From: Candidatus Woesearchaeota archaeon
GTDB taxonomy: Archaea > Nanobdellota > Nanobdellia > Woesearchaeales > JABIAG01
Assembly (NCBI GenBank): GCA_018653365.1
Contig: JABIAG010000003.1
Location: 62,001 to 126,000, forward strand
DNA: 64,000 nt
Direction of reading: 5' to 3'
The notes beneath the pieces were generated by a model. It was not told where the DNA came from, made no database searches, and worked only from the letters and a program-made list of their open reading frames with translations. The position numbers were made by a program, and so were the translations under genes. The number at the start of each line of letters is the position of its first letter. Within the stretch, counting starts at the first letter, position 1. Shown piece after piece: positions 15,657-20,131 of the stretch.

Positions 15657-15806
15657 TTTTATTCACCTCAGTACTGTTAGAGTGTTGAACTATATCTATT
15701 CTGTCTTTAATGGTTAAAGAATGTTTTAAAATGAGAATCTTTAAATAAAAACATTAGCTTTCATTGATTTATATAGGGCCCATAGCTCAGTCTGGTTAGA
15801 GCGCTG

Positions 15807-15835
15807 AGTTTAAGAGGCAACTCTTATTCGCGCAA
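15807..15835 (+). other. intron 1 of tRNA-Ile (29 nt, position 29/30)
   Basis: Bounded by a canonical bulge-helix-bulge with a perfect 4-bp central helix GCGC/GCGC, outer AGA/TCT and an internal hairpin AAGAG-GCAA-CTCTT. Cleavage after the second base of each 3-base bulge restores CTGGT. Confidence 0.8.
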
Positions 15836-15843
15836 GTCTTATA

Positions 15844-15889
15844 TGATGTTTTTGGTTGCAATGAAAAAATGCCAAGAATACTCTAAGCC
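15844..15889 (+). other. intron 2 of tRNA-Ile (46 nt, position 37/38)
   Basis: Central helix CTTA/TAAG, bulges TA^T and CC^A, and an internal stem TTTTTGGT/GCCAAGAA. Canonical archaeal intron position. Confidence 0.82.
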
Positions 15890-15930
15890 AGCCAGAGGTC
15901 CGGAGTTCAAATCTCCGTGGGCCCATACAT

Positions 15931-16019
15931 GCGGTAGTAGTGTAGTGGTTTAGCATCGGTCGTTGCCAATTAAAAGCAAAAACGATTGGACCCGAGTTCA
16001 AATCTCGGCTACCGCACCA
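15931..16019 (+). tRNA. tRNA-Gly(GCC) with a 13-nt intron
   Basis: Exons 15931-15968 and 15982-16019 join to a 73-base tRNA plus encoded CCA: acceptor GCGGTAG/CTACCGC, anticodon stem GGTCG/CGATT (two G-U pairs), loop TTGCCAA, T arm CCGAG TTCAAAT CTCGG. The intron ATTAAAAGCAAAA (15969-15981) has a minimal bulge-helix-bulge: central helix TTGC/GCAA, bulges CA^A and AA^A, closed only by the 6-base loop TTAAAA. It starts 5 bases after tRNA-Ile, so the two are co-transcribed, and it is followed by a T-run that could terminate transcription. Confidence 0.92.
15969..15981 (+). other. 13-nt intron of tRNA-Gly (position 37/38)
   Basis: Only a 4-bp central helix and a 6-base loop remain inside the bulges, so the usual second helix of the splice motif is missing. 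Close to the lower size limit for an archaeal tRNA intron. Confidence 0.82.
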
Positions 16020-16050
16020 TTTTTTTAAAATAATTCTGTATTTTTAGTTT

Positions 16051-16149
16051 CCATTGGACACGCGTTGTCCAGTGGGCAGAGAAGGACTGTACCCTTTGAA
16101 TCCGGGCGTTTCAGATGTTTAATTTTCAAGTTTTCCACTGGACAAGTCC
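16051..16149 (+). promoter_or_regulatory. paired CACTGGACAA motifs upstream of the HTH-LAGLIDADG gene
   Basis: Two copies: an inverted pair CCATTGGACA/TTGTCCAGTGG (16051-16075) and CACTGGACAAGTCC (16136-16149). The second ends 10 bases before the TATA-like TTTTTAAAA at 16160-16168. The same CACTGGACAAGTCC occurs 10 bases before the TATA box of the other LAGLIDADG gene (19886-19899), plus another TTGTCCAGTGG. No reading frame occupies 16020-16188. Confidence 0.75.
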
Positions 16150-16159
16150 CGCCCTAAGG

Positions 16160-16168
16160 TTTTTAAAA
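16160..16168 (+). promoter_or_regulatory. TATA box of the HTH-LAGLIDADG gene
   Basis: TTTTTAAAA centred 25 bases before the ATG at 16189, indicating a leaderless mRNA. Confidence 0.6.
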
Positions 16169-16188
16169 GAGATAAGAATTACTTAAGG

Positions 16189-17166
16189 ATGAGAACTCCT
16201 GGAAGCCGCATCTTTGAAACAAGAATAAAACTAAATACAATTGATTGTAAAGCGTTCATAGACTGTTGTAAGTGTGAATCAAAAATGTCTTGGAAAGATT
16301 TAGCCAGATTATTAGATGTATCTGAGCATACAATCAGAAATGATTGGCGAAGAGGGAGATCAACAATACCCAATTCGAGATTTAATAAACTTAAGGAATT
16401 AGTTCCAAAGTTCAATTTTCACGAGTTTGAAACTCTTTCTAAGAACTGGGGGCAAAGTATGGGTGGAAAAAACACTGCATGTAAATTGCCTAAAATAAAG
16501 ATCCCCCTCTCAGGTTCCAAGAATCTTGCTGAGTTGTTTGGTGCTATGTTGGGTGATGGTTGTATTTATAGCAATGGTCAGTCATTAGTGATTGCTGGAA
16601 ATTATAAGCTTGATGTGGATTATATTAATTATTTAAAGCGTTTGTTTTTGGATCTGTTTGCAGTGCAACCTAAAATTTATAATAAATCAGGTTCGTTGCG
16701 GCTTATAGTTAACAACAAACGAATTTGTGACTTTTTTGAACAAATGGGCTTTAATAAAGGTAGAAAAAAAGATTCTAATATCAAAATTCCTTCCATTTTC
16801 TTTGATGATGGCCGCTTACTCATTTTGTGCTTGAGGGGGCTTTTTGATACAGATGGAGGAGTTTATTCACACCCAAATTGTGGAATAATGTTAGATATTA
16901 CTTCAAAAATTCCTTCCTTATTAAACTCAATAAAAATTGCTTTCAATCAATTAAACTTTGAGGTGGGTTTAACCACTAATAGAATTCAATTATTTGGCTT
17001 TAAAAAAGTTAATGCTTTCTTTACTTTTATTGGGAGTAGCAATCCTCGAAACTTTATTAAACTACAAAATTTTAAATCTAAAAGTTATGTCCCTTCAACG
17101 AAACAAATGGAAAGACTTTTAAAACATAATGGAAAACCTGTTAAAATAAATGGGCTCATGGTTTAG
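16189..17166 (+). CDS. HTH-LAGLIDADG protein (homing-endonuclease family or derived regulator)
   Basis: 325 residues. Residues 25-75 hold a helix-turn-helix (SWKDLARLLDVSEHTIRNDW, then an RRG basic turn). Two LAGLIDADG helices follow at about 120 (LAELFGAMLGDGCIY) and 220 (CLRGLFDTDGGVY), both with the catalytic-type Asp kept. A basic C-terminus ends QMERLLKHNGKPVKINGLMV. The stop codon lies 15 bases inside the tRNA-Val gene, so the coding end and the tRNA acceptor share DNA. It is free-standing, not inside an intron, and follows tRNA-Gly. The added DNA-binding domain and the conserved upstream motif suggest either specific target recognition by an endonuclease or a regulator; the sequence cannot decide. 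Confidence 0.88.
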   Translation: MRTPGSRIFETRIKLNTIDCKAFIDCCKCESKMSWKDLARLLDVSEHTIRNDWRRGRSTIPNSRFNKLKELVPKFNFHEFETLSKNWGQSMGGKNTACKLPKIKIPLSGSKNLAELFGAMLGDGCIYSNGQSLVIAGNYKLDVDYINYLKRLFLDLFAVQPKIYNKSGSLRLIVNNKRICDFFEQMGFNKGRKKDSNIKIPSIFFDDGRLLILCLRGLFDTDGGVYSHPNCGIMLDITSKIPSLLNSIKIAFNQLNFEVGLTTNRIQLFGFKKVNAFFTFIGSSNPRNFIKLQNFKSKSYVPSTKQMERLLKHNGKPVKINGLMV

Positions 17167-17171
17167 TGGCT

Positions 17172-17196
17172 TGCGACTAATAAAAGTCGTCCATGA
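17172..17196 (+). other. D-loop intron of tRNA-Val (25 nt)
   Basis: Non-canonical position. Full bulge-helix-bulge with internal hairpin; removal rebuilds the common Val D-arm sequence GTGGCTATGAC. Confidence 0.82.
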
Positions 17197-17213
17197 ATGA
17201 CAGCGCCCTTACA

Positions 17214-17232
17214 TGGCAGAAGTGCTTATGAA
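17214..17232 (+). other. anticodon-loop intron of tRNA-Val (19 nt)
   Basis: Position 37/38; inner stem GGC/GCT, central helix with one U-U mismatch, so the motif is slightly relaxed. Confidence 0.75.
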
Positions 17233-17280
17233 AGGCGTTAATCCCCGGTTCGAGTCCGGGTGGGCCCACCATTTTCATTT

Positions 17281-17358
17281 GCCCCTGTGGTGTAGCCCGG
17301 TCAATCATTCCGGATTTTCGATCCGAAGACTCGAGTTCAAATCTCGGCAGGGGCGCCA
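17281..17358 (+). tRNA. tRNA-Glu(UUC), intronless
   Basis: Acceptor GCCCCTG/CAGGGGC, D arm with GTGTAGCCCGGTCAATCAT, anticodon loop TTTTCGA (UUC), T arm TCGAG TTCAAAT CTCGG, discriminator G and encoded CCA. The first anticodon-stem pair is a C-A mismatch. It lies 9 bases after tRNA-Val and is followed by T6, a likely terminator. Confidence 0.94.
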
Positions 17359-19057: not shown

Positions 19058-19840
19058 CTATAAAACTTTTTTGTAATTAGAAAATAGTTTGTTTAGGATT
19101 TTCTTTCTTTCTTCAATTGTGGTTTTAGGTGGTAAATATCCTAACTTTTGCCACACGGCATGTCGTGTTTGATGTCGGGGATTGTTTGAACCAATCAAAT
19201 CAAACCATTTTTCAATTTCAGCAATTTTTCTGATTCGTAATCTATAAGAATTATTGATCTTCCTGTTACATTTGATGCCCGCTTTCTGTTTAAGTGAAAC
19301 TTTAGATTCAATTCCTAATTTATTTAATAAGTAAGAACTTTGTTCTAATAGTTGTTTTGAACAAGATACTATTGAGAGTTCAGGATGGTAATTGTATGTT
19401 CGCTTCCATTCTGTTGATGTTTTGGCTCGTGACTTATCGCACCAAAAAGAGCCATCTGTGTCAAACAACCCTCGTAAAAACGCTTTTATAACTTGTTTAT
19501 TTTGAGTTTTTAATATTGAAGTTGGTATTGTGGCATTCAAACATTTTTTTCCTTTTTGAAATCCTAGCTTCAATGCTTTTGCAATTATTTTTTTTCGGTA
19601 TGTGAAAATGCCATAAACTTTCCAGGGGATAACTTTTTTCGGGGTTACCTGAATAAAATGTTTAGAAAACAGTTTTGAAAGGAAGTCATCATAGTAGTCT
19701 TTATCTTCGGTAGGGCTTCCCATTATGTAAAATCCTTTTTCTCTGTTTTCAATCCATCCATCGCCCGTAAATGCCCCCAAGATCTCAGCAATTTCTGGGT
19801 GGTTTAAAGAACTTTTGGGTTTTTTAGTATTCATTTTCAC
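19058..19840 (-). CDS. LAGLIDADG homing-endonuclease family protein
   Basis: 260 residues with two LAGLIDADG helices: EIAEILGAFTGDGWIE (about residue 20) and IKAFLRGLFDTDGSFW (about 120), acidic residues kept. No extra DNA-binding domain, unlike the protein at 16189. The track start is a GTG; an ATG two codons later (19834) is equally possible. It lies directly downstream of tRNA-Leu on the same strand, mirroring the tRNA-Gly/LAGLIDADG arrangement, and has the same upstream motif. Confidence 0.88.
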   Translation of the reverse strand: MKMNTKKPKSSLNHPEIAEILGAFTGDGWIENREKGFYIMGSPTEDKDYYDDFLSKLFSKHFIQVTPKKVIPWKVYGIFTYRKKIIAKALKLGFQKGKKCLNATIPTSILKTQNKQVIKAFLRGLFDTDGSFWCDKSRAKTSTEWKRTYNYHPELSIVSCSKQLLEQSSYLLNKLGIESKVSLKQKAGIKCNRKINNSYRLRIRKIAEIEKWFDLIGSNNPRHQTRHAVWQKLGYLPPKTTIEERKKILNKLFSNYKKVL

Positions 19841-19885: not shown

Positions 19886-19920
19886 GGACTTGTCCAGTGC
19901 CGCATGGAATTGTCCAGTGG
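19886..19920 (-). promoter_or_regulatory. paired CACTGGACAA motifs upstream of the second LAGLIDADG gene
   Basis: Minus strand: CCACTGGACAA (19910-19920) and CACTGGACAAGTCC (19886-19899). The latter is identical to 16136-16149 and again ends 10 bases before the TATA box. The first copy lies 12 bases after the tRNA-Leu 3' end. Confidence 0.75.
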
Positions 19921-19978
19921 TAATTAAATTGATGCGGGGAACAGGATTTGAACCCGCGTAGGCACTAAGCCAGTAGAT

Positions 19979-20024
19979 GGCTCACGGTAAGCACTTCATC
20001 GACTTTCGTCTCATTACTCAATAA
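19979..20024 (-). other. intron 2 of tRNA-Leu (46 nt, position 37/38)
   Basis: Central helix CTCA/TGAG perfect; contains a further small hairpin GAC-GAAA-GTC. Confidence 0.8.
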
Positions 20025-20031
20025 CTTGAGT

Positions 20032-20062
20032 TTGGGTGTCAGCGCCCCTTTGGCGTCAAACG
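20032..20062 (-). other. intron 1 of tRNA-Leu (31 nt, position 30/31)
   Basis: Non-canonical site inside the anticodon stem, one position away from the stem intron of tRNA-Ile. Central helix GGGT/ACCC is perfect; the outer helix is weak. Confidence 0.78.
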
Positions 20063-20131
20063 CTACCCCGTTTGACCGCTCCGGCATCCCCGCATAACTG
20101 TTTAGAATTACTGTTTGTTATAAAAAAGTTA

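Follow-up and report, generated by a model that had tools for sequence, protein, structure and literature searches.

The 64,000-nt stretch of DNA analysed here (the window; contig JABIAG010000003.1, positions 62,001 to 126,000, from a Candidatus Woesearchaeota archaeon) contains a gene for a helix-turn-helix (HTH)-LAGLIDADG protein, termed HE1, which ends inside a tRNA-Val(UAC) gene that carries a 25-nt intron in its D-loop. We propose that HE1 and this intron would be the two visible ends of one mobile element, which belongs to a tRNA-specific family of LAGLIDADG genes. Such an element, consisting of the endonuclease gene, a copied tRNA exon and a short bulge-helix-bulge (BHB) intron, would home into intronless tRNA genes and rebuild them. 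We give this reading, which is drawn from comparison of sequences, a probability of about 0.72.

According to the model, the endonuclease would cut an intronless tRNA gene at the point where two exons, A and B, meet (A|B). By repair from an occupied copy, the gene, a second copy of exon A (A') and the short BHB intron would then come to lie between A and B, with the original A staying behind as a remnant. The occupied allele would thus read A(remnant) - gene - A' - short intron - B, and splicing out the short intron would join A' to B and restore the tRNA. Because the intron interrupts the target, the host gene would be safe from its own endonuclease. In a mirror form, the inserted block would be intron - B' - gene, and the remnant would lie on the 3' side. 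For the repair machinery the insertion would thus be a single block at the cleavage site, similar to that in ordinary homing, and the cell would be left with a complete tRNA that has a short spliceable seam. What can be seen in the sequences is the association with tRNA genes, the isotype fidelity, the recurrent overlaps, the remnants that end at intron sites and, within one genus, both the presence and the absence of the arrangement. DNA cleavage, the repair route, the splicing of these introns and the same history for the tRNA-Val of the window are what we infer.

HE1 and the introns of tRNA-Val(UAC)

The D-loop intron (Table 1) conforms to a BHB motif: GUGG and CCAU form a 4-bp central helix, in which one pair is G-U, flanked by the two 3-nt bulges CU^U and GA^A and by 6 inner and 3 outer pairs. 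This is the intron and the pairing that the initial annotation had described. What it had missed is a second intron of 19 nt beside the anticodon, whose cut pattern (CUUACA^...AA^A) is a relaxed motif with 3/4 central pairs. Predicted splicing of both introns yields a canonical tRNA-Val(UAC) of 73 nt with all its stems, in which the exons at the D-loop junction read GGGCTCATGGTTTAGTGGCT joined to ATGACAGCG; CCA is encoded at 17269-17271.

HE1 fills the gap between the genes for tRNA-Gly and tRNA-Val. Its open reading frame (ORF) does extend 15 bases into the tRNA, as had been claimed, and its stop codon TAG coincides with tRNA-Val positions 13-15. The protein matches the Pfam family LAGLIDADG_3 (PF14528; 36.5 bits, cut-off 22.5). 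Its predicted structure (mean pLDDT, a per-residue confidence score, 87.7) combines an N-terminal helical HTH region with a two-motif LAGLIDADG fold; confidence is low for the eight C-terminal residues, of which the tRNA overlap encodes four. The nearest solved folds found by Foldseek are inteins (PI-PfuI among the matches) and two endonucleases encoded in archaeal introns, I-Tsp061I and I-DmoI.

Since both acidic motifs, represented by D123 (GDG) and D220/D222 (DTDG), are invariant across 17 diverse family members, HE1 looks like an active endonuclease, as judged from sequence and the structural model. Some LAGLIDADG proteins are maturases, and the Foldseek matches also include the bI3 maturase and the regulator WhiA. 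Together with the N-terminal HTH, these matches would fit a WhiA-type transcription regulator or a tRNA RNA maturase in place of a nuclease. We regard this as quite improbable: the invariant acidic motifs are those needed for cleavage, the HTH is missing from many family members, and scattered presence and remnants are traits of a mobile gene.

Family members lie at tRNA genes

We searched 288 genomes of the order, mostly draft assemblies, and found the family in 180 of them; the homologues counted are the top hits of a profile built mainly from members that are linked to tRNAs. Because many tRNAs escape ARAGORN and Rfam searches, an intron-aware finder and a spliced aligner were used. These programs and the BHB scoring were purpose-written and checked only against reversed or null sequence. 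A tRNA was assigned when its spliced alignment to a tRNA library scored at least 45; the highest score among 60 null regions was 34.

The first 80 loci come from genomes that had played no part in discovering the family. Of the 83 tRNAs detected in them, 58 fall into the 12.5% of sequence that lies within 300 bp of a family ORF (P = 1e-33). Spliced alignment placed a tRNA at the edge of the ORF in 80/86 cases from separately drawn genomes, in 30/33 from a third set and in 30/31 from the discovery set. Outside the discovery set, 110 of the 119 homologues in the order are thus found at tRNA genes, and the same is true for 12/12 homologues from other orders of the class. Many apparent exceptions to the adjacency ended at tRNAs that the standard model had missed.

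The junctions between gene and tRNA recur as well. Of the 80 linked ORFs in the separately drawn genomes, 35 have their stop codon within the tRNA, and an intron seems to be present in 75 of these tRNAs. The offset seen at HE1, -15 on the same strand with the stop TAG at positions 13-15, is shared by 8/86 homologues, and a convergent offset of -19, in which the antisense of the T-loop provides the stop TGA, is also recurrent.

Related genes stay with one isotype

In a maximum-likelihood tree of 114 proteins the linked tRNA isotype changes 36 times, whereas shuffled labels gave 81 changes on average and never fewer than 74. The test comprised 107 labelled rows; for a few of them the label was changed manually to that of the nearest tRNA, and a version with fewer such changes gives a count of 37. 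The tree contains lineages for Gln, Thr, Leu, Arg, initiator Met, Phe, Gly and other isotypes. The sister of HE1 (L182), from a different family, overlaps a tRNA-Val(UAC) gene by the same 15 nt, and this gene has a 24-nt intron after position 20, the site that is also occupied in the window.

An alternative is that tRNA loci serve as conserved, harmless landing sites, as they do for integrases, and that neither cleavage of the tRNA gene nor introns are relevant. Although tRNA genes are frequent integration sites of archaeal elements (PMC3293823), we consider this highly improbable, because isotype fidelity across families and remnants cut at intron sites (see below) require that a specific tRNA sequence is recognized there. 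Moreover, isotype switching among close genes lies far below the chance rate, and Pfam finds no integrase domain in HE1.

Introns and exon remnants mark the same sites

Introns are so common in these genomes that tRNAs with and without the gene can be told apart only by tests specific for position and isotype. An intron after position 55 of initiator tRNA-Met is present in 9 of the 14 linked genes of the second locus set and in 0/24 unlinked ones (P = 1e-5); in a sample found by the tRNA's own 5' letters, 17/30 initiator tRNA-Met genes are intronless. Several initiator tRNA-Met genes (L165, L171, L143, L175 and others) have T-arm introns according to spliced alignment, and some contain up to four introns. 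For tRNA-Gln, the comparison was limited to introns after position 22, and finding unlinked genes required that the first 22 letters were intact; such an intron occurs in 5/9 linked and in at most 1/29 unlinked genes (P about 0.001, hypergeometric sum). The initial annotation had suggested comparing tRNA-Val loci with and without the endonuclease gene. An intron after position 20 is present in the two linked genes of the HE1 lineage and in 2/29 unlinked tRNA-Val genes.

Four loci, representing three isotypes, retain an exon remnant beyond the gene that ends exactly at the intron site. In L142 and L008 it corresponds to tRNA-Gln positions 1-22 (22/22 identical), and the D-loop intron follows position 22; between remnant and tRNA there is room for the LAGLIDADG ORF only. 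The remnant in L321 comprises tRNA-Gly positions 1-20 (20/20), with the intron after 20, and L143 presents the mirror case, with initiator tRNA-Met positions 56-74 (18/19) and the intron after 55. An AT-rich, promoter-like stretch is kept upstream of the remnant in L142 and in L120. In null comparisons scores reached 10.5 at the 95th percentile and 22 at maximum, and because of this maximum only long exact remnants carry weight. Shorter or diverged remnants were seen in L141, L031, L274, L304, L327, L113 and L115.

Three loci (L113, L115 and L031) contain a complete tRNA-Thr, followed by the endonuclease gene and a diverged 3' piece of tRNA-Thr, which has the unusual T-loop TGCAAAT. A complete endonuclease gene inside a tRNA intron was looked for in L113, L115 and L141, but these loci were seen to hold remnants plus complete tRNAs.

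The occupied and the empty state can be compared within one genus, g116. Two of its genomes (G158 and G271) carry the gene and the D-loop intron at tRNA-Gln between the same two flanking genes. In a third one (G133) the syntenic tRNA-Gln lacks both and contains an anticodon-loop intron only, and in G009, from the same family as the g116 genomes, the tRNA-Gln at this place has no intron at all.

Several observations weigh against the proposed model. Exact remnant boundaries are found in four loci only, two of them in related lineages, and upstream of HE1 itself no tRNA-Val remnant is detectable (p = 0.79). The tRNA-Val of the window is therefore assigned to the scheme on the strength of its sister L182 and of the pattern in the family. 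There are linked tRNAs without an intron (L034, L126, L168 and L114) and, conversely, rare D-loop introns without a nearby LAGLIDADG gene, namely those in the two unlinked tRNA-Val genes, in tRNA-Arg(CCU) of the source genome and in L292. Relatives with the same intron and no neighbouring gene were what the initial annotation had named as the sign of independence, and the 2/29 tRNA-Val genes and the tRNA-Arg(CCU) gene bear this out to a limited extent. Introns of this kind would be expected after loss of the endonuclease; they may also have arisen independently. Finally, tRNAs near and far from the gene do not differ significantly in their overall intron frequency (51/58 and 12/16, respectively).

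That introns are common in tRNAs away from the gene (12/16) would also suit plain intronless homing, in which the enzyme recognizes the 5' or 3' end of the tRNA plus its flank, insertion at the edge destroys the site, and the introns are older, unrelated and simply kept in intron-rich genomes. The position of the gene at the tRNA edge, its recurrent offsets of -15 and -19 and the few intronless linked tRNAs agree with this explanation too. We nevertheless consider it unlikely, since the remnants in L008, L142, L143 and L321 end at the intron site and not at the edge of the tRNA, linked introns occupy sites that are rare in unlinked genes, as after position 55 of initiator tRNA-Met, and gene and D-loop intron are present or absent together in one genus.

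For the endonuclease of the window two options had been raised before, that it targets intronless tRNA-Val genes or that it simply inserted here. If an element of the proposed kind is at work, targeting and insertion would be aspects of one process. Partial support for this comes from the tie of the family to tRNA genes, its isotype-faithful lineages, the intron position that follows the linked gene and the four remnants that end at the intron site.

A shared box upstream of the endonuclease genes

In 65/114 cases the nine-base box CACTGGACA is found ahead of a family gene, and a TATA-like box mostly follows it at a distance of 15-20 nt. No other 9-mer upstream of these genes is as enriched as this box, which occurs in 2/160 control regions and has only 66 copies in the 80 loci taken together (930 kb). 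It was found in 0/12 loci from other orders of the class. HE1 and HE2, a second LAGLIDADG gene of the window, each have two copies (Table 1), and the upstream copy at HE1 belongs to a palindrome, CCATTGGACA-N5-TGTCCAGTGG (16053-16075).

A longer form, CACTGGACAAGTCC, has six sites in the source genome if at most one mismatch is allowed: two at HE2 and one each at HE1, at HE3 (see below), at another LAGLIDADG-like gene and at a sugar nucleotidyltransferase gene. In the same genome, outside the window, the box CACTGGACAGGTCC (C1:719248, L069; C1:419148, L068) precedes a LAGLIDADG-like gene for which no tRNA was found nearby and a sugar-nucleotidyltransferase gene without a link to LAGLIDADG proteins. 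Because of these two genes the box may define a small regulon. It could be read by a dedicated regulator or reflect self-regulation.

Taken across the class, it seems reasonably probable that we are dealing with a selfish LAGLIDADG family that has one isotype per lineage and rebuilds its tRNA with a carried exon, the BHB intron being the seam, and that this family, most of whose members in one order share CACTGGACA upstream of TATA, is a continuing source of noncanonical archaeal tRNA introns.

Relation to known systems

LAGLIDADG endonucleases are known from BHB introns of archaeal rRNA genes, such as those of I-DmoI and I-Tsp061I and the 16S introns of Thermoproteales (PMC4496867). They share with the present family the LAGLIDADG fold and a BHB intron in the gene of a structural RNA. 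In Pyrobaculum oguniense (S1205/S1213), a short hairpin intron can be co-converted by the endonuclease of a neighbouring rRNA intron (PMC4496867). The present family differs from these systems in that its genes are located outside the introns, which reside in tRNA genes and mostly measure 15-60 nt, and in that a duplicated exon would serve to rebuild the tRNA.

Precedents for the mechanism are this co-conversion and collaborative homing. F-CphI is encoded beside the intron-containing psbA gene of cyanophage S-PM2; self-cleavage is prevented by the intron, which in turn becomes mobile through the endonuclease (PMC6083498). HE1 is likewise a free-standing endonuclease-family gene next to an intron-bearing gene, and the intron-site remnants are consistent with an enzyme that would cut the intronless allele and be blocked by the intron. 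The two differ in the type of enzyme (LAGLIDADG rather than Endo VII), intron (BHB rather than group I) and host gene (tRNA rather than protein), as well as in the exon duplication, and cleavage is a prediction for the present family.

Integrase elements in archaeal tRNA genes, including the gain of a tRNA-Thr intron in Caldiarchaeum (PMC3293823), resemble our loci in that the tRNA is reconstituted, a tRNA fragment marks the other border and the intron arrives with the element. An integrase-type recombinase in one population was proposed there, whereas here a LAGLIDADG gene is involved, class-wide and at many isotypes; HE1 lacks the integrase domain of tRNA-integrating elements of the SSV/pNOB8 type, and L142 and L008 have room for the LAGLIDADG ORF only. 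Group I introns with LAGLIDADG genes have been reported from the rRNA of DPANN archaea, among them Woesearchaeota and Pacearchaeota (PMC6125680). LAGLIDADG_3 and related Pfam domains are common to both systems, which differ in the rRNA hosts and the self-splicing introns of the former. No group I ribozyme core was recognized at our locus: Rfam gave no group I match in the window at gathering scores, and the D-loop intron of tRNA-Val has only 25 nt. Our literature search, which mostly did not extend to subscription journals, found no paper that links endonuclease genes with archaeal tRNA introns in this way.

How introns came into archaeal tRNA genes has long been asked, above all for odd sites such as those in the D- and T-loops, and direct evidence has been scarce. 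In the loci described here, the gene that is likely responsible is still attached in many genomes and at many isotypes, remnants mark the point of insertion, and one genus is polymorphic for the whole arrangement. The model predicts the cleavage site of each endonuclease from the genome sequence, as its joined exons. If it is true, it would explain one route by which archaeal tRNA introns arise, the short introns would persist as a shield of the tRNA gene against its own parasite, and a large collection of natural endonucleases, whose targets in tRNA genes are predicted, would be at hand.

Further tRNA and LAGLIDADG genes of the source genome

The genome around the window comprises 1.09 Mb in three contigs, and the archaeal SRP (signal recognition particle) RNA and RNase P RNA found in the window place it in Archaea.

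Table 1. Coordinates of tRNA genes, introns, LAGLIDADG genes and promoter boxes in the window.
Feature	Position	Strand	Details
tRNA-Ile(UAU)	15776..15925	+	two introns (15807-15835; 15844-15889); same cluster as tRNA-Val
tRNA-Gly(GCC)	15931..16016	+	one 13-nt intron (15969-15981)
CACTGGACA, second copy	16066..16074	-	inverted, upstream of HE1
CCACTGGACAAGTCC	16135..16149	+	upstream of the TATA-like TTTTTAAAA of HE1 (16160-16168); core box CACTGGACA at 16136-16144
HE1, HTH-LAGLIDADG gene	16189..17166	+	325 aa; catalytic Asp motifs MLGDG and FDTDG both present
Overlap of HE1 3' end and tRNA-Val 5' end	17152..17166	+	15 nt
tRNA-Val(UAC)	17152..17268	+	two introns; their removal allows the acceptor, D, anticodon and T stems to form
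D-loop BHB intron of tRNA-Val	17172..17196	+	25 nt, after mature position 20
Second intron of tRNA-Val	17214..17232	+	19 nt, canonical 37/38 site beside the anticodon
tRNA-Glu(UUC)	17281..17355	+	no intron
HE2, second LAGLIDADG gene	19058..19840	-	260 aa; 92 bp downstream of tRNA-Leu(CAA)
CACTGGACA, two copies	19891..19919	-	upstream of HE2 (19911-19919, 19891-19899)
tRNA-Leu(CAA)	19933..20093	-	two introns: 20032-20062 (31 nt), 19979-20024 (46 nt)

Three more LAGLIDADG genes, HE2, HE3 and HE4, lie beside tRNAs in the source genome. HE2 clusters with endonucleases that adjoin tRNA-Leu in other genomes, HE3 overlaps the 3' end of a tRNA-Arg(UCU) gene by 19 nt, and HE4 is situated 52 bp from a tRNA that carries a D-arm intron. 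A 44-nt D-arm intron is also present in tRNA-Arg(CCU) of this genome (C3:69333, L064), where no LAGLIDADG gene was found nearby; it is possibly the leftover of a lost element.

tRNA-Val(UAC) is part of a cluster of four tRNA genes (15776-17355) that also includes Ile(UAU), Gly(GCC) and Glu(UUC). In many archaea AUA is read by a modified CAU tRNA, unlike the tRNA-Ile(UAU) of the window. ARAGORN reported 1/5 tRNAs of the window and called neither the tRNA-Val gene nor its D-loop intron. Many intron-bearing tRNAs of such genomes probably go unnoticed in standard annotation.
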